A stretch of 64,000 bases of DNA from positions 1,178,001-1,242,000 of the forward strand of contig NZ_CP040872.1 of assembly GCF_006337065.1 (NCBI RefSeq), in the 5' to 3' direction. The stretch comes from Agromyces laixinhei (lineage in GTDB: Bacteria > Actinomycetota > Actinomycetes > Actinomycetales > Microbacteriaceae). The notes below the pieces were generated by a model. The model searched no databases and was not told the DNA's origin. It saw nothing but the letters and a program-made list of their open reading frames with translations. Of the stretch, positions 29,456-40,461 are shown one piece after another (position 1 is the stretch's first letter; the number at the start of each line of letters is the position of its first letter). A program made the position numbers and the translations under genes.

Positions 29456-30508
29456 ATGCAGCACGACGATGCGCCTCGCCCGCTCGTGATCGGGCACCGC
29501 GGCGCACCCGGGTACCGCCCCGAGCACACGCGATCGGCCTATGAACTGGCGTTCGCCCTCGGTGCCGATGCCGTTGAACCCGATATCGTCGCCACGCGCG
29601 ACGGCGTGCTCGTGCTCCGCCACGAGAACGAGATCTCGGGCACCACCGATGTCGCGGACCGACCCGAGTTCGCCGGTCGGCGCACGACCCGCGAGATCGA
29701 CGGCACCGCGCTCACCGGCTGGTTCACCGAGGACTTCACCTGGGCCGAGCTCGCGACGCTGCGTGCCCGCGAGCGCCTCGGGGCGCTGCGCCGGTCGAGC
29801 GCGAGCTTCGACGGCCGGTTCCCCCTCATCAGGCTCCGCGAACTCTTCGAGATCATCGACATCGCGGCCGACCAGCAGCGCCGGATGCTGCGCATGGTGG
29901 CCGAGTTCAAGCACGCCGCGCACTTCGACGCCCTCGGGTTGCCGCTCGACGAGTTGTTCCGGGCCGAGCTCGAGGCGGCCGGGTGGGGGCGCGGCGACGA
30001 GCGGCTCATCATGGAGGCGTTCGAGCCGACACTGCTCGAGCGACTCGGGGCTCGGGGCATCCGGGGCAAGCGGGTGCTGCTCATCGAGGGATCGGGTGCT
30101 CCGTGGGACCTCGTGCTCGAACAGGGCAAGGCCGCGCCGCGCTACGACTCCTTCGTGACCGAGGCCGGGCTGCTCGGGCTCGCCGGCCGCTTCGACGGAG
30201 TGAGCGTCGGCACGGCGCGGCTCGTCGGCGAGACGAGACGACAGCGAGCGGATGCCGCGGGCGCGCCCCTCAGCGGCGCCGAACTCGTCGATGCCGCGCA
30301 CGCGGCCGACCTCGAGATCTACACCTGGACCCTGCGGCCCGAGAACCGGTTCCTCTCCGGGCGATTCCGGCGCGGCACCGTGCGGGCCGCGTTCGGCGAC
30401 TGGGCGGGCGAGTTCGCCGAGATCATCGGCATGGGGGTCGACGGAGTGTTCGTCGATCACCCCGACCTCGGCGTCGACGTGCGCACGATGCTCTCCGAGG
30501 CTCGCTGA
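29456..30508 (+). CDS. Glycerophosphodiester phosphodiesterase family protein
   Basis: A 350-residue GDPD enzyme that should hydrolyse a glycerophosphodiester or related phospholipid head group. The N-terminus LVIGHRGAPGYRPEHT holds His14-Arg15, followed by Glu41 and Asp43 in AVEPDIVATRDGVLVLRHEN and His56; these are the metal and catalytic residues. The barrel continues to ADLEIYTWTLRPENRF and ends GMGVDGVFVDHPDLGVDV. No signal peptide is seen, so it is cytoplasmic. Only 2 nt separate it from the adenylate-forming gene, so it heads the biosynthetic-looking operon. It may recycle lipid for the pathway or be a bystander. Confidence 0.9.
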   Translation: MQHDDAPRPLVIGHRGAPGYRPEHTRSAYELAFALGADAVEPDIVATRDGVLVLRHENEISGTTDVADRPEFAGRRTTREIDGTALTGWFTEDFTWAELATLRARERLGALRRSSASFDGRFPLIRLRELFEIIDIAADQQRRMLRMVAEFKHAAHFDALGLPLDELFRAELEAAGWGRGDERLIMEAFEPTLLERLGARGIRGKRVLLIEGSGAPWDLVLEQGKAAPRYDSFVTEAGLLGLAGRFDGVSVGTARLVGETRRQRADAAGAPLSGAELVDAAHAADLEIYTWTLRPENRFLSGRFRRGTVRAAFGDWAGEFAEIIGMGVDGVFVDHPDLGVDVRTMLSEAR

Positions 30509-30510
30509 GC

Positions 30511-31908
30511 GTGCCGGAGCAGGACGGCGCCGACACCCGGTGCAGGACGCCACGTGATGCGACGCTGCCGGCGATCGCCGCGGCGCGGTTCGTTCGGGCA
30601 CGGTGGGTCGACCGCATCGGCGGGGCGGCGAGCCTCGAGCGACGGCAGCGCCGCGGTCTCGAACGGCTGTTGCGCGAGCGGATGCCGCGTGCCGCCCACT
30701 ACCGCGGCGGACTCGACCGGCTCGGAGACGCACCCGTCGTCGACAAGGCGACCGTGCTCGCCGACTTCTCCGGCTTCAACGTGCGGGGCATCCCGCTCGA
30801 CACCGCGCTCGCCGAAGCGCGGGCGGCCGAAGCGAGCCGCGATTTCCGCGGCGAGCTGCCGGGCGGTGTGACGGTCGGCCTCTCGAGCGGCACCTCGGGG
30901 CGCCCGGGGGTCTTCCTCGTCGACCCCGCAGAGCGGATGCGCTGGGCGGGCACCGTGCTCGGCCGACTGCTCGACCGGCGGAGTCTCGTCCAGCTGGTGC
31001 AGCCGTGGCTGCCGCCGCTGCGCATCGCCTTCGCGCTGCGCGCGAACTCCAACCTCTACGAGTCGGTCGCGAGCCGTCGCCTGTCATTCGCCTTCGTCGA
31101 TCTCGTCGCGCCGTTCGAACAGATCCGGCAGGGGGTGGCCGGTGCCCGACCCGATGTGCTCGTCGCCCCGTCGAGCCTGCTCGTCGAACTTGCGCGCGCC
31201 GGGCTTCGCGGCGAGCTCGGCATCGAGCCGCGGCTCGTCGTCGCCGTCGCCGAGGTGCTCGACGACGCCGACTCCGAACTCGTCGAATCGGCGTGGGGTG
31301 TACGGCCCCGGCGGGTCTACCAGGCGACCGAGGGGCTGCTGGCCCTCGACTGCGACCGTGGGCGGTTGCACCTGAACGAGCAGAGCATCGTCGTCGAATC
31401 GGAGTGGATCGACGGATCCGAGGTCGTGGGCGGGCGTTTCGTGCCCATCGTCACCGATTTCGATCGCAGCACGCAGCTCATCGTGCGGTACCGACTCGAC
31501 GATGTGCTGCGGATGCCCGCCCGCGGGCAGCGGTGCGGCTGCGGAAATCCCGCCCGAGTGATCGACGCCGTCGAAGGGCGTGCCGACGAGGTCATCGAGG
31601 CATTCGCCCCCGACGGACGGGTCGTGCGCGTCTTTCCCGATGCGGTGCGACGCGCGATGACGACCGCCTCGACGGCGGAATGGGGCATCCGATGGGCGCC
31701 CGATGCGATCGAGGTCGCCATCGATCCGCTCGACCCCGAACACGCGCGCGCGGTTCGCGGCGTGCTCGCCCGACTCTTCGAGACGGTCGGGGCGGTGCTG
31801 CCCGAACTCGACGTCGTGGCGCTCGCGCCGCGGCAGCTCGGCGCGAAGCAGGTGCGCATCGCCCGCGCACATGCCGCGACACAGGAGGAGACCGCCGATG
31901 TCGTCTGA
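30511..31908 (+). CDS. Adenylate-forming enzyme, F390 synthetase/PaaK-like
   Basis: A 465-residue member of the ANL superfamily, of the short PaaK/coenzyme F390 synthetase-related type. Seen motifs: GLSSGTSGRPGVFLVD near residues 123-138 (P-loop), YQATEG at 270 (A5), YRLDDVL at 327 (A7), the Cys-x-Cys-Gly stretch at about 346, GRADEVIEA, and the C-terminal Lys in GAKQVRIAR near 446. It should activate a carboxylic acid as the acyl-AMP, perhaps onward to CoA. GTG 30511 is 2 nt after the GDPD stop and the gene overlaps the following SDR by 11 bp. The acid is unknown; the KAS III-like gene downstream suggests a fatty or aromatic acid. Confidence 0.85.
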   Translation: MPEQDGADTRCRTPRDATLPAIAAARFVRARWVDRIGGAASLERRQRRGLERLLRERMPRAAHYRGGLDRLGDAPVVDKATVLADFSGFNVRGIPLDTALAEARAAEASRDFRGELPGGVTVGLSSGTSGRPGVFLVDPAERMRWAGTVLGRLLDRRSLVQLVQPWLPPLRIAFALRANSNLYESVASRRLSFAFVDLVAPFEQIRQGVAGARPDVLVAPSSLLVELARAGLRGELGIEPRLVVAVAEVLDDADSELVESAWGVRPRRVYQATEGLLALDCDRGRLHLNEQSIVVESEWIDGSEVVGGRFVPIVTDFDRSTQLIVRYRLDDVLRMPARGQRCGCGNPARVIDAVEGRADEVIEAFAPDGRVVRVFPDAVRRAMTTASTAEWGIRWAPDAIEVAIDPLDPEHARAVRGVLARLFETVGAVLPELDVVALAPRQLGAKQVRIARAHAATQEETADVV

Positions 31909-32890
31909 GCCCGTACGGATCCTCGTCACCGGAGCGACCGGGTTCGTCGGCGGTGCACTGCTGCGCGCGCTTCGCTGCCGGCCCGGTGCGGAGGCCCGTG
32001 GCATCGGACGACGACGGGTGCCCGATGGAGATATCGCGAGCATCGACCTCTGCCGACCCGTGACCGCGACGTTCGCGACCGAGTTCCGCCCCGACGTCAT
32101 CGTGCACGCGGCGGCGCGCGCGAGCCAATGGGGCAGCCGCGCGCAGTTCGAAGCCCAGAACGTGGACGCGACCGCGAACGTACTCGACCTCGCGCGGCGC
32201 ACGGGCCTGCCCCGAATCGTGTACGTCTCGTCGAGCTCCGTCTTCTACCGGCCGGCTGATCAGTACGACATCACCGAGGAGACGCCGATCGGGCCCGACT
32301 ACCTGAACGACTACGCGCGCACGAAGCACGCAGGCGAGTTGCTGGTGCGCGAGTACCCGGGCGAGTGGGTGATCGCGCGGCCGCGCGCAGTGTTCGGGCC
32401 CGGCGACACGACCCTGCTGCCGCGGATCATCGCGGCAGCGGCGGCCGGGCGCCTGCCGTTCATCGGCGACGCGGCGGCACCCGCAGTCGGCGATCTCATC
32501 TACATCGACACGCTCGTCGACCAGCTCATCGCAGCAGCGCTGCGGCCGGGGCTCTCCGGCACCTGCGTGAACCTCACGAACGGCGAGCCGGTACCGCTCA
32601 TGCCGACGATCGGGCGGATCCTCGCCGAGCTCGACCTTCCGGCTCCCACCCGGTACATCGGGCGCGGCACGGCGCTCGGACTCGCCGCCGCCGCCGAGAC
32701 CGTGTGGCGCCTCGGCCGTCTTCGCGGCGAACCGCCCCTGACTCGGTACGCGGTCTGGCTGCTCGCCTCCTCGAAGACCTTCGACGTCTCGAACGCCGAG
32801 CGGTTGTTCGGGGCGCCGAGCGTTTCGATGGACGACGCGCTCGCCCGCACGATCGCCGCCGTGCGGAGCGATGCGAGGGCCACCCGATGA
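31898..32890 (+). CDS. NAD(P)-dependent epimerase/dehydratase (3beta-HSD-like SDR)
   Basis: An extended short-chain dehydrogenase of 330 residues. The cofactor motif is TGATGFVGG (Gly12, Gly15, Gly18); VSSSSVFY and the catalytic Tyr139 and Lys143 (YARTK) follow. The stretch ARPRAVFGPGDTTLLPRII and the loop GDAAAPAVGDLIYIDTLVD resemble 3beta-hydroxysteroid dehydrogenase-like enzymes, a group that includes OleD (2-alkyl-3-ketoacid reductase) and HpnA. ATG 31898 has AGGAGGAG 8 nt upstream and overlaps the previous gene. I infer reduction of a beta-keto or sugar intermediate in the operon's pathway; the substrate is open. Confidence 0.87.
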   Translation: MSSEPVRILVTGATGFVGGALLRALRCRPGAEARGIGRRRVPDGDIASIDLCRPVTATFATEFRPDVIVHAAARASQWGSRAQFEAQNVDATANVLDLARRTGLPRIVYVSSSSVFYRPADQYDITEETPIGPDYLNDYARTKHAGELLVREYPGEWVIARPRAVFGPGDTTLLPRIIAAAAAGRLPFIGDAAAPAVGDLIYIDTLVDQLIAAALRPGLSGTCVNLTNGEPVPLMPTIGRILAELDLPAPTRYIGRGTALGLAAAAETVWRLGRLRGEPPLTRYAVWLLASSKTFDVSNAERLFGAPSVSMDDALARTIAAVRSDARATR

Positions 32891-34062
32891 GACGCGCCGA
32901 CCGCTTCGCCGTCGCCGCCGCCGTCGGGTACTCGGCTCTCATGCTCACGAAGGCCGCTGCCGCGGCGCTGGCCGTCGAGCGGCGCCGTGCGCGTCTGCGA
33001 TCGGCCACGGGCGCCGCGGTGGCCCCGTCGGCCGTCACGATCGTGCAGCCGATCCTCTCGGGCGATCCGCAACTCGTCGACACCCTCGCGAACACCCTCG
33101 CGGTCGCGGGTGATTCGCCCGTGCTGTGGCTCGTCGACGCAGCGGACCCCGAGGGGCGTCGCACTGCGGAGGAGGCGGGCTCGCGGCATCCACTCGCCGC
33201 CGTGCGCATCGTCGACTGCCCGCCGTGCCCGCCTCGAGTCGGCCCGAAGACCTTCAAACTGCACCTCGCCGAATCGCTGATCGAGACCGACGCGTTCGCG
33301 GTCGTCGACGACGACACGCGGGTGACGGCCGAGGGCCTCGCGGCGCTCCGCGACGGGCTGCGAATCGCCGAGGTGAGCACCGGGCTCCCCAGCTATGTTC
33401 CGGGCGCCGGCATCTGGTCGCGCCTGCTCGCGCAGTTCGTCAACGACCAGGCCACGCTCTCGTACCTGCCCGCATCGGCGATCGGCGGACCGCGCACCAT
33501 CAACGGCATGACCTGGGCGATGCGACTCGACACGCTCGAGCGGATCGGCGGCTTCTCGCCGTTGCTGCCACTGCTCGCCGACGATCTCGCGGTGGCGACC
33601 CGAGTGCGCGAGACGGGCGGCTCGATCGATCAGAGCGAGGTCGTGCAGTTCGTCTCGACGACCGTCGACGGCGGGCGCCGGTACGGCGATCTCATGCATC
33701 GCTGGATGGTCTTCGCGACGCTCCTGCTCCGTGCCGAGCGCCCGGTGCGGCGTGCGGGCATCGCGGCCGGGTATGCGGTGCCGGCGGTGCTGCTCGGCGC
33801 GCTCGTGGCAGCGAGTGCCGTGCGACCGACGACGGCGCGTGTCACGGCGCTCGCCGGCACCCTGGCACTGCGTTCCGCGATCATCGCAGCCGTGCAGCGC
33901 ATCGTCGCCGGGCGGTTCCGGCACGACCCGGTGCTGTCGCTCGCCGGCGAACTCGTGCTGCCGGTGCAGTTCGGCCGGGCGCTCGCCGACCGTCGCATCG
34001 TGTGGCGGGGCCGGCGATATCTCGTGCATGCCAACGATCGCTTCGAAGAGGCACCGCGATGA
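32887..34062 (+). CDS. Membrane glycosyltransferase, GT21 (ceramide glucosyltransferase)-like
   Basis: A 391-residue membrane-bound GT-A glycosyltransferase. It has an N-terminal hydrophobic segment (about 8-30), a donor-binding acidic cluster AVVDDDTRVT near residue 140, LADDLAVATRVRETGG (second acidic motif), and a DLMHRWMVF stretch matching the (Q/R)xxRW motif. C-terminal helices follow and the end RRIVWRGRRYLVHANDRF is typical of the ceramide glucosyltransferase/HpnI group. It should transfer a sugar to a lipid on the cytoplasmic face. ATGA overlaps join it to both neighbours. Sugar and acceptor are unknown; no ceramide genes are in the window. Confidence 0.85.
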   Translation: MRRADRFAVAAAVGYSALMLTKAAAAALAVERRRARLRSATGAAVAPSAVTIVQPILSGDPQLVDTLANTLAVAGDSPVLWLVDAADPEGRRTAEEAGSRHPLAAVRIVDCPPCPPRVGPKTFKLHLAESLIETDAFAVVDDDTRVTAEGLAALRDGLRIAEVSTGLPSYVPGAGIWSRLLAQFVNDQATLSYLPASAIGGPRTINGMTWAMRLDTLERIGGFSPLLPLLADDLAVATRVRETGGSIDQSEVVQFVSTTVDGGRRYGDLMHRWMVFATLLLRAERPVRRAGIAAGYAVPAVLLGALVAASAVRPTTARVTALAGTLALRSAIIAAVQRIVAGRFRHDPVLSLAGELVLPVQFGRALADRRIVWRGRRYLVHANDRFEEAPR

Positions 34063-34631
34063 CGCTCGGAGTCTGCTTTCTGACCGGCCGCAGCGACCGC
34101 GCGAACTCGGCGCTCTCGCCCGCTCAGCAGGCCTTTCTCGATGGCCTCCCGCTCGCCCCGGAGGAGCGTGTCGGGGTGAATTTCCCCTACTTGCCGGCGA
34201 GCGGACCGTGGCGCCGTACTCCGCTGCCGGTCGCGAGCGCACGAAACGTTCGCGACTACTTCGCGTCGCGGCGACCCGCGTTCGCCCTCATGTACTCCGC
34301 CGCCGTTCGCGCGGTGCTCACGGCGACCGATCGCACCCTCGTGCTCGCCGGGAGCTGCGGGCTCGAGCTCCTCGCGAACCTCGAGCTCGACGACGACGCA
34401 CTCGCCCGGGTGCACGTCGTGGCCTACGGGCCGGTGGCGAGGTCGCTGCCGCGCGCCGCGACGGTCGAGACCGTGACCGGGCGCTCCGACGCGCTGGCCC
34501 GGCGCTCGACCGGTGCCCCCGACCACGAGATCGACGGGCATCATCTCGACTACCTCTCGTCGCCGGAGCTGCGCGCCGTCGTCGTCGCCGCGATCGCGCG
34601 GCTGCGCGCAGAACAGGACGTGCGCCGATGA
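34059..34631 (+). CDS. Small protein, possible reduced alpha/beta-hydrolase
   Basis: A 190-residue protein I do not firmly recognise. No signal peptide or membrane helix. The stretch LVLAGSCGLELLANL near residues 95-109 has the form of a nucleophile elbow (small-x-Ser-x-small) after a hydrophobic strand, and DGHHLDYLSSPELRAVVV near the C-terminus resembles the His loop of alpha/beta-hydrolases; the acid residue and the oxyanion loop at the N-terminus are unclear. It has 4-bp overlaps with the GT21-like gene before it and the GT1-like gene after it, so it belongs to the operon. It could be a thioesterase or hydrolase acting on the pathway's acyl product. Confidence 0.72.
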   Translation: MTLGVCFLTGRSDRANSALSPAQQAFLDGLPLAPEERVGVNFPYLPASGPWRRTPLPVASARNVRDYFASRRPAFALMYSAAVRAVLTATDRTLVLAGSCGLELLANLELDDDALARVHVVAYGPVARSLPRAATVETVTGRSDALARRSTGAPDHEIDGHHLDYLSSPELRAVVVAAIARLRAEQDVRR

Positions 34632-35983
34632 CGGGTCACGTCGAACTCGTGTCACCGCCCTTCGCGGGCCACCTGCACCCGATGCTCGGCATCGGCGCCG
34701 AACTGGTGCGGCGAGGGGTGCCGGTGCGTGTCGTCAGCACCGGATCGGCGCGTGCCGAGATCGAGGCGGCCGGCCTGCCGGCGGTGGCGCTCGAAAGCGC
34801 CGACGATCGGGTGATCGCCGCGATCGTCGACCCGCCCGAGCGCATCGGGGCGAACCCGGTGCGACTGCACCGGCAGTTCCGCGGCACGCTCGGAGTGCTC
34901 GCCACGATCAGCGAGGAACTCGATCGGCGATACCTGGAGGAGCTGCCCGCGATCGTCGTCGCCGATTTCACCCTGCCGGTCGCCGGCATGGCCGCGAGGC
35001 GCCACGGCGCCCGGTGGTTCACCGCGATACCCTCACCCGCCGCGATCGGCTCGGTCGACGGCACCCCGGCGTACTTTGGCGGTTGGTCGCCGCCTCGCGG
35101 GCTCTCAGGCCGGGCGAGGGATGCCGCCGGCCGAGGGGCGGCTCGCGCGTTCAAGCGCGGGGTCTTCGCCATGAACGCGGCACGGCTGCGGGCGCTCGGG
35201 TTCTCGGGGGCGTTCCGGCACGATGGCACCGAGCAGGTCTACTCGCCCGACACCGTGCTCGGTCTCGGGCTCGCGGAACTCGAGCTGCAGCGCACCTGGC
35301 CGCCCGCGATGCGGTTCGTCGGACCGGTGCGCTACACGCCGCCGGGCCGTCCGGGAGCGTGGGGTGCGCCGGCATCCTCAGATCGCGAACCGCACGCCTC
35401 GTCGCCGGATGCCGCGGCGCCGCGCCGACCTCGCGTGCTCGTCTCCTGCGGCACGCACCTGGCGGGCACGAAAGCCGAACTGCTCGAGACCGCCGAGCTG
35501 GTGGCCGAACTCCTGCCCGGGGTGCACCTCGAGATGACGCTCGGCGGAACGCGGGCGAACGGCGGCGGCGACCTGACGCGAGTCCGGCTCCTCGAGTATG
35601 CCGACTACGGCGAACTCGGCGGCTACGATGCGGTCGTCCACCATGGCGGCGCAGGCATCGTGCACGCCGCGCTCGCCGCGGGCCTGCCCGCCGTCGTGGT
35701 TCCCATCGACTACGATCAGCCCGACCTCGCCGCGCGTCTCGTGCACCATGGGCTCGCCGAACGGCTCTCGCCCGCCGAGTTACGGGGGGCTTCCGGAGCA
35801 GCCAGGCTCGCCGCGGCGATCGAACGGGCGCTCGCCCCGGCCGAGGCGCGGCGGCGCGCCCTCGAGCGATTCCGGCTGGCGAGCGGCGAGCACGACGGTG
35901 CGGCGGGGGCCGCTGATCTGATCGAGGAGGCATGGGTGTCGGGAGCGGGAGTCGGCGACGAATCGGGCGGGGTACGCAGATGA
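34628..35983 (+). CDS. Glycosyltransferase, GT1/UGT-like
   Basis: A 451-residue GT-B glycosyltransferase. The N-terminal domain starts HVELVSPPFAGHLHPMLGIGAELVRRG, the acceptor-side motif of UGT/MGT enzymes with the probable catalytic His near residue 15. The C-terminal domain holds VVHHGGAGIVHAALAAGLPAVVVPIDYDQPDLAARL, the donor-nucleotide signature. No signal peptide is present. The middle (about residues 235-265) is a Pro/Ser-rich linker. It is the second sugar transferase of the operon and probably glycosylates a hydroxyl on a small hydrophobic molecule using a UDP- or dTDP-sugar. It overlaps both neighbours by 4 bp. Confidence 0.87.
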   Translation: MTGHVELVSPPFAGHLHPMLGIGAELVRRGVPVRVVSTGSARAEIEAAGLPAVALESADDRVIAAIVDPPERIGANPVRLHRQFRGTLGVLATISEELDRRYLEELPAIVVADFTLPVAGMAARRHGARWFTAIPSPAAIGSVDGTPAYFGGWSPPRGLSGRARDAAGRGAARAFKRGVFAMNAARLRALGFSGAFRHDGTEQVYSPDTVLGLGLAELELQRTWPPAMRFVGPVRYTPPGRPGAWGAPASSDREPHASSPDAAAPRRPRVLVSCGTHLAGTKAELLETAELVAELLPGVHLEMTLGGTRANGGGDLTRVRLLEYADYGELGGYDAVVHHGGAGIVHAALAAGLPAVVVPIDYDQPDLAARLVHHGLAERLSPAELRGASGAARLAAAIERALAPAEARRRALERFRLASGEHDGAAGAADLIEEAWVSGAGVGDESGGVRR

Positions 35984-37029
35984 CGCTCGTGACCGAGCGG
36001 CCGCAGCGAACGGATGCCGCGCGCTGGACGACCTCGGCCCGCATCGCGGGTCTCGGGGTCTACCTGCCTGAGCACTGGCGCTCGACGAGCGAGACCGAAG
36101 CGCGCATCGCCGCTGCGAACCCCGGACTCGGGCTGCCGACCGGCATCATCGCCCGTCTCACCGGCGTGCGCGGCGTGCACGTGCGGCCTGAGGGGTGGCA
36201 GACCTCCGACCTCGCGGTGGCCGCTGCGCGGAAGGCACTCGCCGATGCCCCCGGACCGATCGACCTGCTCGTCTTCGCCTCGGCGAGCCAAGACCTCATC
36301 GAGCCGGCGACCGCGCACATCGTGGCGGCGAAGCTCGGGCTGTCGGCAGCGGTCATGGACGTGAAGAACGCGTGCAACAGCCTGCTCGTCGGCATGCAGG
36401 TCGCCGAGGCGCTCATCGCGACCGGGCAGGCGCGGCGAGCCCTCGTCGTGAGCGGCGAGCAGCCCTCGCACGCGGTGCGCTGGAAGCTCGCCGGCAACGC
36501 GCAGTTCCTGCGCTCCTTCCCCGGCTACACCATGAGCGACGGCGGGGCCGCAGTGGTGCTCGAATCGAGCGAACGATCGGGCGCCGGCATCATCGGCTCC
36601 CGGTTCAGTGCGCACTCGCAGTACTGGGACGTCGGCACGCTGCCGACCGGCGGTTCGATCAACCCGCACGCGGTCGGGGGCAGCTACTTCGACATGGACG
36701 GGCGCGCCCTCGAGCGAGCCTTCCGTCGTGTCGGGCTCGGCATCTTCCATGAGACGCTCGCCGGTGCAGGCCTGCGAACCGGGGATCTCGCGTTCGTCGC
36801 CGTGCATCAGGTCGCGCTGCCGATGCATCGCCGTATCGTCGACCTGCTCGGCGTCGATCCCGCGATCACCGAGGAGACGATCTCGGCGCACGGCAACCTC
36901 GCGAGCGTCTCCCTGCCCGTGCAGCTCGAACGCGCACTCGGACGGGGACGGATCCGATCCGGTGACCTCGTCGCGCTCGTCGGTCTCGCGGGCGGCATCA
37001 GCCTGGGCGTGACGGTGATGAGGTGGTGA
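35980..37029 (+). CDS. 3-oxoacyl-ACP synthase III-like (KAS III/OleA-type) condensing enzyme
   Basis: A 349-residue thiolase-fold enzyme. The catalytic triad is visible: Cys132 in VMDVKNACNSLLVGMQ, His276 in VAVHQVALPMHRRI, and Asn306 in SAHGNLASVSLPVQL. The MSDGGAAVVLE strand is also typical. The housekeeping FabH sits with fabD/acpP in actinobacteria; here it is among glycosyltransferases and a P450, so it is probably a specialised condensing enzyme, as in OleA or secondary-metabolite KAS III. It should form a C-C bond between two acyl thioesters. ATGA overlap upstream; the P450 GTG overlaps its stop. Confidence 0.88.
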   Translation: MTLVTERPQRTDAARWTTSARIAGLGVYLPEHWRSTSETEARIAAANPGLGLPTGIIARLTGVRGVHVRPEGWQTSDLAVAAARKALADAPGPIDLLVFASASQDLIEPATAHIVAAKLGLSAAVMDVKNACNSLLVGMQVAEALIATGQARRALVVSGEQPSHAVRWKLAGNAQFLRSFPGYTMSDGGAAVVLESSERSGAGIIGSRFSAHSQYWDVGTLPTGGSINPHAVGGSYFDMDGRALERAFRRVGLGIFHETLAGAGLRTGDLAFVAVHQVALPMHRRIVDLLGVDPAITEETISAHGNLASVSLPVQLERALGRGRIRSGDLVALVGLAGGISLGVTVMRW

Positions 37030-38219
37030 CGCGCGCAGCTGCGCCGGATCGCACCGCGATGCGATGGGAGGAGCGCGTGATGCGCGCGGCGCATCCGCTC
37101 GCCTACCCGATGCTCGCGAGCATCACGCGTCCGGTGCTCCGGGTGCCCGGCCTCGGCACGGTCGTGACGGATGCCGCGTTGCTGCGCGCCGTGCTCATGG
37201 ACACCGCCTCGTTCGCGAAGACCGGCCCGGGGTCGCCGAGCGAGCTCTGGACGCCCGTGCTCGGACCGCGGGTGCTGCTGAACATGGAGGGGGCCGACCA
37301 CCTCGAACTGCGGCGGCGGCTCGCGCCGCTCTTCACGCCGGCCGCGGTGAGCGCGATCGTCGATCGCACGCTCGGCGAGCCGTACGCGTCGCTGCGGGAA
37401 CGACTCGAAGCGGGAGAGCGGGTCGAACTGGTCGCCGAGGCGCGCCGGTGTGCCAGCTCCGTGATTTCGGCCCTCGTCGGCCTGCCGGCCTCGGTCGTCG
37501 ACGACCGGCTCTTCCGCCGGATCGCCACGGTGACGGGTGCCGTGCGGCTCTCTCGGCCGCGGATGACGCCGGCGCAGGTGCGCCATGCGCGTGGTGTCAT
37601 GGCCGAGCTGACCGGCCATGCCGCGGCGGCATGGCGGCGAGGCGACCCCGAGACCGTGCCGGGTCGCATGCGCGAGCTCGGCCTCGACGAGCAGGAGTCG
37701 CTCGGCGCCGTCGGCGCCTTCGTGCTGACGGGCACCGAGACGCTCGTCGCCTACCTGCCCCGGATCATCTGCCTGCTGGCGGACACCGGATGGCTCCGCC
37801 GTCTCTCCGGCGATCGCGGTCATGTCGATGCGGCCATCGCGGAGGGCCTCCGCGTGACGACCCCGTCGCCCGTCATGCTGCGGAGCGTGGCGCGTGAGGC
37901 CCGCGTCGGCGACGTGGTCGTACGTCCCGGCGAACGGATCGTGCTCGCGACCTTCCTCGCCGATCGGATCGCGCCCGGGTTCGATCCGATCGGAAACCCG
38001 GCCGCGAGTCTCCGTCAGCTCTGGTTCGGTGCCGGTGCCCATTTCTGCCTCGGCGCCCCGCTCGCGATGGCGCAGATCCGCGGCATGCTCACGGCGGTGC
38101 TCGATGCCGAGGCTGTGCGCCCGCTCGCGGTGCATTCGCGCCGCGCGGCACGCGGAGTGCTGATTCCGGGCTATCGGAGCGTCGTGCTCGGCGGGGTGTC
38201 GGAGGCCGCGACGGCCTGA
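37026..38219 (+). CDS. Cytochrome P450
   Basis: A 397-residue soluble bacterial P450 monooxygenase. The haem-binding loop FGAGAHFCLGAPLAM puts the thiolate ligand at Cys341. The K-helix ExxR is EGLR in AIAEGLRVTTPSPVMLRSV, and the I-helix has VLTGTETL, with the acid-alcohol pair. It probably hydroxylates the product of the operon, giving a hydroxyl for the glycosyltransferases. GTG 37026 overlaps the KAS III stop (GTGA); GTG 37023 is also possible. No ferredoxin is adjacent, so electrons must come from elsewhere. It is the last gene of the operon, only 4 nt from a convergent gene. Confidence 0.9.
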   Translation: MTRAAAPDRTAMRWEERVMRAAHPLAYPMLASITRPVLRVPGLGTVVTDAALLRAVLMDTASFAKTGPGSPSELWTPVLGPRVLLNMEGADHLELRRRLAPLFTPAAVSAIVDRTLGEPYASLRERLEAGERVELVAEARRCASSVISALVGLPASVVDDRLFRRIATVTGAVRLSRPRMTPAQVRHARGVMAELTGHAAAAWRRGDPETVPGRMRELGLDEQESLGAVGAFVLTGTETLVAYLPRIICLLADTGWLRRLSGDRGHVDAAIAEGLRVTTPSPVMLRSVAREARVGDVVVRPGERIVLATFLADRIAPGFDPIGNPAASLRQLWFGAGAHFCLGAPLAMAQIRGMLTAVLDAEAVRPLAVHSRRAARGVLIPGYRSVVLGGVSEAATA

Positions 38220-38223
38220 CGCC

Positions 38224-39048
38224 TCACCACGCCGCGACGAGCTCGATGCCCTCCGCCTCGATCGCCGATCGGAACCGGTCGTCGCGGAGCACGGCGAGCT
38301 CCCATGTGCGAACGACCCCGTCGGTGCCGACGACCGCGTGCTCGGGCGCGGGGTGCATGAAGATCTCGCTCGTGCCATCGGGAAGCGCCCCGAGGATGCG
38401 GAGGTAGTCGTCGAGAAGCGCGTCGTAGCCGCCGAGTTGCGCGGCGGACCGGCGGTTCGTCGCGATCGCGGCGGGGATGCGCACGCCGAGCGCGTCGGCC
38501 GCTTCCACGCCGCCCGCGTGCACCGAGGCAGCGTCGGCCTGGGGAGGGCCGCCGAGGTAGAGCGTCGGATCGCGTGGGAGCCGGAATCCCAAGCCGTGGC
38601 GCGCCGAGAGTCCGAGGGCCTCGCCGATGAACGATCGCCCCGTGAGGCCGTACAGCGTGCCGGCGTGCGAATCGAGGGCGAGCGGTCGGATGCCCCAGCC
38701 CTGCAGGCGCCGGAGCTGCGCATCGAGCTCGTCGGCGACCTCGGCGGCATCCGCCCCGGCGCCCACGTCGTCGGGGTCGAACGGCAGCACGCCGTCGCCC
38801 GAGACGAGCGAGGGTGCCGCGAGGATCGGGTGCCAGCCGGCGAGCCCGCGCTCGCTCGAGAGCGTCGCGTGCAGGCGCGCCGCGATGCCCGCGTCGGCGA
38901 CGGCCCTCGCCGCGGCCTCTGCCCCGGGCGCGACGACGATGACCGTCGCCGCCGTGATCGCTCCCTCGGCGGCCAGAGCCGCGATCTCGGCGGCGCTGCC
39001 GGTCTCACGGCCGAGGTCGTCGGCCGTCAGCACGAGTCGTCGGGTCAT
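38224..39048 (-). CDS. ChbG/HpnK-type (YdjC-like) carbohydrate deacetylase
   Basis: A 274-residue metal-dependent deacetylase of the YdjC/ChbG family, which removes acetyl from chitooligosaccharides (ChbG) or GlcNAc-hopanoid (HpnK). Metal-site residues are visible: the Asp pair in LVLTADDLGRE near residues 10-11, His in AARLHATLSSERG, His in ALDSHAGTLYG, and His in EIFMHPAPEH. The ATG overlaps the stop of the GPH transporter by 4 bp, so they form a two-gene operon convergent with the P450. This suggests sugar uptake and deacetylation, but a link to the neighbouring glycosylation operon is also possible. Confidence 0.85.
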   Translation of the reverse strand: MTRRLVLTADDLGRETGSAAEIAALAAEGAITAATVIVVAPGAEAAARAVADAGIAARLHATLSSERGLAGWHPILAAPSLVSGDGVLPFDPDDVGAGADAAEVADELDAQLRRLQGWGIRPLALDSHAGTLYGLTGRSFIGEALGLSARHGLGFRLPRDPTLYLGGPPQADAASVHAGGVEAADALGVRIPAAIATNRRSAAQLGGYDALLDDYLRILGALPDGTSEIFMHPAPEHAVVGTDGVVRTWELAVLRDDRFRSAIEAEGIELVAAW

Positions 39049-40436
39049 TGCGCGGTCTCGTCGTCGGACGCGGTGCCGCGCACCGTGGCGAGCGTCATCT
39101 CGCCGTCGGCCTCCGCTTCGGAGAGGCTGTCGGGAACCCGGATGAAGCGAGCGAGCACGGCCCCGATCACGCAGAGGATGAACGGATAGACGCAGAGGTA
39201 GACGCGCCATGCGACATCCGCTCGGCTGCCGGGGTCGTCGCCGGAGTTGTAGCCGAAGACGATGCCGAGTGAGGCGAGGGCAAGGCCCGTGATGATGCCG
39301 TTCAGGCGCCCGAAGAAGCCGAAGGCCGAGAGGAAGAGCCCCTCGCGGTGCTGACCGTGACGGCGGGCGTCGTCGTCGAGCACGCGGGCCACGATGAGAT
39401 CGTTCGTGGCGAGCATGCCCGAGTAACCGGCTCCGACGAGGAGTCCGGCCAGGAGGGCGGTCACGAGGTCGACCGCGAAGAAGAGCGGAATGAAGCTGAG
39501 TGCGAGGATGACGAACGCGAGTCGCCAGGTGAACGCCGCGCCCTTGCGCCGGATCACGCGCGTCCAGACGACGAGCCCGGCCGCCGAACAGAGGATGACG
39601 GTGGCCTGGAGATAGAGCGCGTTCGCGACGGGCAGGCCGAGGGAGTAGCGCACGTAGAGCTGGAGGCCCGCGAGCACGAGGGCCATGGCGCTCGCGTAAC
39701 AGGCGCCCGCGACGCCGATCGACCAGAACCTCGGGTTGCGGATGATCGTGAGGAGCGTCGCGAAGAAGCGCGGCCGCGCGCCGGCGGCGTAGCGCGGGTT
39801 CTCCTTCGCGCTGAACGCCATGAACAGGATGACGGCCGTGGCGATCGCGCCGTAGATGACCGCGGTCGTGGTGAACCCGACCGTCGTGTCTTCGGTGCCG
39901 AAGACGGAGGTCGTCAGCAGCGGCGTCACGGCGAGCGAGATCACGAGGGCGACGAGCTGGAAACCCTGTCGCAGCGAGTTCGCGACCGCGCGCTTGCGCT
40001 CGCGCGGGAAGAGCTCGGGCAGGAGCGCCCCGTAGTTGGCGTTCAACATCGAGTCGAATGCCTCGCAGAGGATCGCGAAGATCGCGAACCACAGCACGAG
40101 GCCGAGTCCCTCGAGGGAGTCGGGCGCGGAGAAGAAGGCGATCATGCTCGCGGCGAGGAGGGGAGCGCCGATGACGAGCCACGGGCGGCGGCGACCCCAG
40201 CGGGTGCGGGTGCGGTCGGAGAGGAAGCCGAGCACCGGATTGTCGACGGCGTCGATCACCGAATAGACGATCATGACGCCCGCGTACACGCGCACGTCGA
40301 GTCCGAGGATGTCGACGTAGTACAGGATCATCGAACCCTTGATCATGTTGATCGGGATCGAGGTGCCGAACATGCCGATGGCGTAGCGCCAGGGGGCCGT
40401 GGCTGGGGGAGGCGTCGTCTCGGCGCGTTCGGTCAT
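39045..40436 (-). CDS. MFS transporter, GPH sugar:cation symporter-like
   Basis: A 463-residue membrane protein with twelve hydrophobic segments. The GPH-family motif is in DAVDNPVLGFLSDRTRTRWGRRRPWLVIGAP, including the Asp pair and the cytoplasmic basic loop, near residues 61-92. The second half has RRKGAAFTWRLAF. ATG 40436 follows GAAGGA. It probably imports a glycoside or oligosaccharide with a cation; substrate unknown. It is co-transcribed with the deacetylase downstream and divergent from pcrA across 114 bp that contains an AATGT-N4-ACATT inverted repeat. Confidence 0.87.
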   Translation of the reverse strand: MTERAETTPPPATAPWRYAIGMFGTSIPINMIKGSMILYYVDILGLDVRVYAGVMIVYSVIDAVDNPVLGFLSDRTRTRWGRRRPWLVIGAPLLAASMIAFFSAPDSLEGLGLVLWFAIFAILCEAFDSMLNANYGALLPELFPRERKRAVANSLRQGFQLVALVISLAVTPLLTTSVFGTEDTTVGFTTTAVIYGAIATAVILFMAFSAKENPRYAAGARPRFFATLLTIIRNPRFWSIGVAGACYASAMALVLAGLQLYVRYSLGLPVANALYLQATVILCSAAGLVVWTRVIRRKGAAFTWRLAFVILALSFIPLFFAVDLVTALLAGLLVGAGYSGMLATNDLIVARVLDDDARRHGQHREGLFLSAFGFFGRLNGIITGLALASLGIVFGYNSGDDPGSRADVAWRVYLCVYPFILCVIGAVLARFIRVPDSLSEAEADGEMTLATVRGTASDDETAQ

Positions 40437-40461
40437 CGTCGTCCTTCGCTGGGGGCACGCA

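Follow-up and report, generated by a model that had tools for sequence, protein, structure and literature searches.

A plus-strand operon of seven genes (30511-38219) lies in a stretch of 64,000 nucleotides from Agromyces laixinhei (contig NZ_CP040872.1, positions 1,178,001 to 1,242,000; hereafter the window, from whose first letter all coordinates are counted), part of a genome of 3.44 Mb in one contig. The operon combines an OleA/P450 lipid pathway of a type described previously with genes for adenylation and glycosylation that belong to a second module, marked by TIGR02304, and its new part is the replacement of OleC by a TIGR02304 enzyme, which belongs to another subfamily. Judged by homology, there is about an even chance that these genes encode a hybrid OleA-type lipid pathway, with TIGR02304 in the place of OleC followed by hydroxylation and glycosylation. 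The genes, including the one immediately upstream, are as follows:

29456-30508, plus strand: GDPD (glycerophosphodiester phosphodiesterase; PF03009), part of the Agromyces core genome, located upstream of the operon and judged not to be a member.
30511-31908, plus strand: TIGR02304 F390 synthetase-related adenylate-forming enzyme (PaaK-like), in the place of OleC; 291.8 bits against a cut-off of 251.9.
31898-32890, plus strand: OleD-like short-chain dehydrogenase/reductase (SDR); best NCBIfam model OleD NF042422, motifs GATGFVG and YARTK, and tree placement.
32887-34062, plus strand: GT21/HpnI-like glycosyltransferase (GT); PF13506, and TIGR03472 at 91.1 bits, under the cut-off of 310.
34059-34631, plus strand: small Ser-Asp-His alpha/beta hydrolase, predicted from residues S99, D144 and H162 and the modeled fold to be lipase/thioesterase-like.
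34628-35983, plus strand: GT1/MGT-like glycosyltransferase; TIGR01426 at 63.3 bits, under the cut-off of 260, with natural-product GT matches in PDB.
35980-37029, plus strand: beta-ketoacyl synthase III (KAS III), predicted to be OleA-type; PF08545 and PF08541, with Glu108, Cys132, His276 and Asn306.
37026-38219, plus strand: cytochrome P450; PF00067, heme-Cys motif FGAGAHFCLG intact.

All eight reading frames are intact, and the close packing reported in a preliminary description of this DNA, which had proposed an eight-gene operon, was confirmed: 2 nt separate GDPD from the GTG start of the adenylating gene, the adenylating gene overlaps the SDR gene by 11 bp, and the remaining five junctions are 4-bp overlaps. 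The P450 may start at the GTG at 37026 or, in the same frame, at 37023. Compared with each of three relatives, all eight genes differ more at third codon positions than at first and second positions, which indicates that they evolve as coding sequence. The Pfam and NCBIfam searches bore out the family calls made previously (GDPD, TIGR02304, OleD-like SDR, GT21, GT1, KAS III, P450), including the combination of a P450 with two glycosyltransferases.

The replacement of OleC is evident from comparison with related loci, and it is a point the preliminary description, only partly upheld overall, had missed. The KAS was searched against genome contigs, and the best 80 of 115 confirmed loci, together with the window and three more Agromyces loci, were taken as a set of 84. 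Most of these have KAS, GT2, P450, OleC and SDR genes in one direction, a parent architecture that spans the Microbacteriaceae, Micrococcaceae, Promicromonosporaceae, Cellulomonadaceae and Pseudonocardiaceae. With adenylating genes counted on the same strand and within 7.5 kb, OleC alone was found at 67 of the 84 loci and TIGR02304 alone at 12, none had both, and five had neither, these being four loci at contig ends (L028, L032, L067 and L099) and one odd locus (L075). No OleC orthologue was found elsewhere in any of the 14 TIGR02304-bearing genomes searched, the best match reaching 94 bits (62 bits in the window genome), compared with 579, 649 and 1084 bits for the OleC query in three OleC-type genomes. 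A number of the OleC-type loci (e.g., L041:16286 and L071:8529) also have a second, divergent P450 of ∼32–39% identity nearby on the opposite strand.

The TIGR02304 loci with this KAS have three layouts: the seven genes of the window in Agromyces; TIGR02304-SDR-KAS-P450 in Herbiconiux and its kin; and TIGR02304, an ATP-grasp-GNAT fusion, KAS, P450 and SDR in Psychromicrobium. The fusion (L048:7687-9972) is 761 aa long, and its halves match separate TIGR02304 neighbors in Paraburkholderia and Paenibacillus. Trees of KAS, SDR and P450 were quick IQ-TREE runs with support from the Shimodaira–Hasegawa-like approximate likelihood ratio test (SH-aLRT) only, built after near-duplicate, truncated and some divergent OleC-type rows had been dropped (33 locus ids for KAS, with 64 of 97 rows used; 38 for SDR and P450, with 58 of 91 and 47 of 84 rows used). 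A second KAS tree had 69 rows and included the genome's FabH twice (L107 and L209); two of its 32 background loci (L109 and L111) were unusable. The KAS tree places Agromyces and Herbiconiux together in a single clade (98*; an asterisk marks starred values) that lies inside the parent clade (99*). Their SDRs fall outside the parent SDR clade (100*), beside that of another actinomycete, G101 (93, not starred), whereas the Psychromicrobium SDR stays within the parent clade, so that the core change in Psychromicrobium is that from OleC to TIGR02304. The window P450 groups with the Microbacteriaceae branch of the parent cluster (89, not starred, in a tree with a midpoint root only and no outgroup), and the TIGR02304 proteins of P450-type loci are on one side of a branch that separates them from those of the module (98/95). 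The Psychromicrobium, Herbiconiux and Agromyces loci amount to a natural swap experiment, in which a TIGR02304 enzyme has been put in the position of a beta-lactone synthetase.

The condensing enzyme is OleA-type as far as its residues, tree placement and predicted model can tell. Cys132, His276 and Asn306, given as intact in the preliminary description, align with the catalytic residues of both OleA and FabH. Glu108 aligns with the Glu of the EPSTA stretch in the Xanthomonas campestris OleA chain 3row, which we take to be Glu117, and the FabHs examined in a residue survey have no Glu at this site. The element around it reads EPATA-x14-DVKNACN and fits EPxx[AS]. In the KAS tree the enzyme nests within the widespread actinobacterial KAS-GT2-P450-OleC-OleD cluster clade, apart from the module KASs and from FabH (the latter separation not starred), and its predicted model is nearest to OleA structures in the VIA comparison. 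Housekeeping FabH was rejected as an identity for this protein, as the genome encodes its own FabH elsewhere (371.1 bits, over its cut-off), with Thr at the Glu site.

Several results weigh against an OleA-type assignment. The OleA pattern used here, EPxx[AS]x(14,18)DxxNACL, taken from part of PMC7158056, is missed at its last position, where the KAS has N for L, and for this reason the enzyme is called OleA-type and is not classed among the canonical olefin OleAs. Its grouping with canonical OleA has an SH-aLRT of 86 or 94, not starred and with long branches, the structural lead of OleA is only ∼2 Z units and comes entirely from one species, and both the SDR and the KAS are under every curated NCBIfam cut-off shown. 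Two FabH-named PDB chains also score slightly higher than OleA over the whole chain (112.7 and 112.2 vs. 107.2 bits), and the NCBIfam models PRK09352 (156.7 bits) and PRK09258 (152.5 bits) are nearly tied. These last two results would suit a FabH-type decarboxylating synthase, with the operon making an ordinary 3-hydroxy-fatty-acid glycolipid like the module discussed below, but Glu108 with its EPxx[AS] element, the separation from FabH and module KASs in the tree, and the closeness of the model to OleA make this improbable. One Agromyces genome (L118, G041:C60) also encodes an OleA of canonical type that has the EP Glu.

The published gene set most similar to the operon is a cluster in Actinoplanes atraurantiacus of OleA, GT, OleC, P450 and OleD, for which a hydroxylated, glycosylated beta-lactone has been proposed (PMC7064751, in the part consulted). 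The preliminary description had called the operon undescribed; this no longer holds for the parent cluster type and its proposed product, which are in that source, but it does hold for the exchange of OleC for TIGR02304. The window operon shares with this cluster an OleA-type KAS, a P450, an OleD-like SDR, a glycosyltransferase and the absence of OleB. This is a likeness of gene set; in the KAS and P450 trees the cluster type is represented by loci from among the 67 of OleC type. The window operon differs in having TIGR02304 instead of OleC, an SDR from another OleD-like branch, and GT21, GT1 and a Ser hydrolase instead of GT2. With the OleABCD olefin pathway it shares the OleA-type KAS and the OleD-like SDR; it lacks OleB, which was sought only within the operon, and an ANL-type OleC, and adds the P450, the glycosyltransferases and the Ser hydrolase. 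The Ole counterparts put forward previously thus stand for OleA (Glu108 and the KAS clade), for the OleD-like SDR and for the adenylating enzyme in OleC's place, but not for OleB, which had been assigned to the small hydrolase. For the SDR, the two OleD models are the best of those searched; NF042422 gives 175.6 bits, under its cut-off of 580, a cut-off passed by none of 248 genomes of the order.

Over-cut-off TIGR02304 proteins are rare in the phylum, occurring in 7 of 120 relatives (the window genome included) and, in a phylum-wide sample of 396 genomes, only in the window's own. The S[ST]GTSG and TEG motifs and the C-terminal Lys are kept in 21 of 21 relatives. Matches were also present in 42 plasmid records, and in all 10 regions examined, which were taken from the better-matching annotated rows, KAS III, SDR, a metallo-beta-lactamase-type protein (MBL) and TIGR02304 form a single series, interrupted by an ATP-grasp gene in the two Bacilli regions. 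Hosts of this module include Escherichia coli, Paraburkholderia, Ketogulonicigenium, Pseudomonas, Paenibacillus, Pontibacillus, Rhizobium, Shinella and Paracoccus. On the E. coli plasmid NZ_CP141085.1 (L216:6029-12910) the module sits between narI and purU and is followed by PAP2, OlsE-like sterol desaturase family and acyl-CoA desaturase genes; the top-scoring models are those of OleD for its SDR and of lactonases for its MBL, none reaching its cut-off. This stretch, without its last gene (acyl-CoA desaturase), was found in 672 of 5426 complete E. coli genomes, with 671 of 673 places being chromosomal. The module resembles the window operon in TIGR02304 and an OleD-like SDR, and differs in that its KAS has no OleA Glu (0 of 11), that it has an MBL (11 of 11) and that the window P450 is unmatched in the four loci searched (L207, L217, L218 and L221). 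In G101 a FabH-type KAS, MBL and TIGR02304 lie beside an SDR and the same GT21, hydrolase and GT1 as in the window, which links the GT21-hydrolase-GT1 cassette to the module. A search of open-licence PMC papers found none recognizable as dealing with TIGR02304, F390 synthetase-related enzymes, this hybrid or the E. coli module.

An MBL gene stands beside TIGR02304 at all 11 loci examined whose KAS lacks the Glu, but in none of the 14 genomes with TIGR02304 beside this P450 (13 with a Glu-containing KAS, and G070); G991, which has no TIGR02304, has no MBL either. A FabH-type enzyme leaves its product as a thioester, whilst OleA releases the free acid. Part of PMC7158056 gives the OleA product as a beta-keto acid. 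If the MBL acts as a thioesterase and so provides TIGR02304 with the free acid, OleA would make it unnecessary, and the pattern would then predict the same class of free-acid substrate for TIGR02304 in both settings. We tentatively suggest that TIGR02304 enzymes, derived from PaaK, are a second family able to activate 3-hydroxy acids and form beta-lactones, which took over from OleC in this lineage, and that the KAS-SDR-lactonase/thioesterase-TIGR02304 module is an unnoticed Ole-like lipid pathway in many bacteria, although the two together are rather less probable than the hybrid pathway itself. The swap gives TIGR02304 a testable substrate class, the 2-alkyl-3-hydroxy acids, and this substrate hypothesis extends to the E. 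coli module. The products of such pathways include beta-lactone enzyme inhibitors and hydroxy-acid surfactants, according to the part of PMC7064751 used.

In the proposed pathway, Glu108 of the KAS would serve as base in a non-decarboxylative Claisen condensation that joins two acyl-CoAs head to head. The 2-alkyl-3-keto acid released would be reduced by the OleD-like SDR to a 2-alkyl-3-hydroxy acid. The TIGR02304 enzyme, acting for OleC, would adenylate this free acid and most likely close a beta-lactone. The P450 would hydroxylate an acyl chain, GT21 and GT1 would add one or two sugars, and the small Ser hydrolase may edit or release acyl intermediates, giving a glycosylated 2-alkyl-3-hydroxy lipid or beta-lactone. 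The analysis shows the gene content, the residues, the ancestry and the replacement of OleC; substrates, step order and product are all inferred from homology.

The same OleA-type backbone could lead instead to an open-chain glycolipid without a beta-lactone, should TIGR02304 pass the activated 3-hydroxy acid to CoA, an amine, or a sugar or glycerol hydroxyl, an outcome we consider a serious but lesser possibility. The enzyme is PaaK-like, and its two PDB matches, the only solved relatives found, are both phenylacetate-CoA ligases. ATP-grasp genes lie near TIGR02304 in five of the 10 plasmid regions, four of them with GNAT as well, and with the Psychromicrobium fusion this suggests acyl or aminoacyl coupling; beside TIGR02304 in the window, however, no ATP-grasp or GNAT match was found, and TIGR02304 occupies the position of OleC, whose reaction is lactone closure. 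The hybrid pathway must also be set against further findings. For a ligase annotated as F390 synthetase within a Desulfotalea psychrophila lipid cluster, glycerol attachment and not lactone closure has been suggested (PMC2649909, in the part seen), and the literature searched contained no TIGR02304 enzyme with a tested function. The purified Actinoplanes OleA that was recovered condensed none of the acyl-CoAs tested, although it was active on a p-nitrophenyl ester (PMC7064751, same part). G070 has TIGR02304-SDR-P450 without an adjoining KAS, and G991 has a further reshuffled arrangement, a GT21-hydrolase-GT1-P450-SDR run (L276:8711-13986) with the parent type of P450 and SDR and no match to KAS, OleC or TIGR02304. 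G070 also has a canonical-type OleA with Glu on another contig (L255), and its P450 match (L206, G070:C12) contains an in-frame insert of ∼58 residues.

The small hydrolase, of 190 aa, is predicted to have a Ser-Asp-His lipase/thioesterase fold and is not OleB. Ser99, which lies in an A-G-S-C-G elbow, Asp144 and His162 are invariant in 67 sequences, and the model (predicted local distance difference test score 96.9) has minimal lipases and thioesterases among its nearest folds. The nucleophile of OleB is Asp, and OleB reportedly shares features with haloalkane dehalogenases; an OleB counterpart was rejected on the Ser nucleophile. OleB and haloalkane dehalogenase chains are absent from the 50 fold matches listed, which proves nothing alone. 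Neither Pfam nor NCBIfam has a family that the protein matches at E 0.001, and nothing was matched in the plasmids searched. Of 398 genomes from the same taxonomic family as the window genome, 6 had a match, four of these lying outside Agromyces (G991 being the one examined). GT21 had only one weak plasmid match, in Fusobacterium. The heme-Cys motif of the P450 is present in 83 of 84 relatives, the exception being a partial match at a contig end, and a non-catalytic, EryCII-like P450 was rejected on the presence of this Cys. Hopanoid decoration by HpnA/HpnI-like enzymes is very unlikely: the scores that hint at it are weak (HpnA 87.7 of 367.65, HpnI 91.1 of 310), the SDR scores far higher with OleD models than with HpnA, and the partner genes are KAS, TIGR02304 and P450, none of which is, to our knowledge, a hopanoid gene; no search was aimed at a squalene-hopene cyclase.

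The operon comprises seven genes, a variable insert in a fixed core neighborhood, because GDPD occupies the same spot in Agromyces without the operon. Of 60 Agromyces genomes, 54 have a full-length GDPD of at least 64% identity and two others have it in pieces, whilst the operon is present in five, with a KAS that is 75–91% identical or the window's own. The seven genes have the same order and place in all five (over two contigs in G050), which argues against a chance assembly, and the co-occurrence of the genes in other genomes is conserved. Neither of the outcomes that the preliminary description had named as refuting it, a lack of such co-occurrence and a grouping of the KAS III with housekeeping FabH, was observed. 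A sixth Agromyces with a KAS (G023, 55% identity) has it in an OleC-type cluster elsewhere in the genome. In all 10 operon-negative genomes examined (G023 included), a non-random choice by best GDPD match, GDPD is followed by a pcrA-like helicase gene, and none of the seven genes was found at this site; in two of them, YdjC and MFS genes lie between GDPD and the helicase. The inclusion of GDPD in the operon had to be withdrawn, as it is a core Agromyces gene. That it works as an eighth member and trims a product linked through glycerophosphate is highly improbable: the 2-nt spacing in the window would suit this, but the gene is conserved in operon-negative Agromyces, is unmatched in the Herbiconiux and OleC-type loci examined, and in G002 its matched parts lie ∼0.57 kb from those of the adenylating gene.

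Between the operon and pcrA, the window has genes for a YdjC-like deacetylase and an MFS transporter on the minus strand (38224-40458), a pair that is matched in two of the 10 operon-negative relatives and unmatched in the operon-bearing G018, G050, G002 and G046. At the G046 locus (L204), GT1 and a Bax-inhibitor-like gene each match as two adjoining pieces, which may be due to frameshifts or strong divergence.

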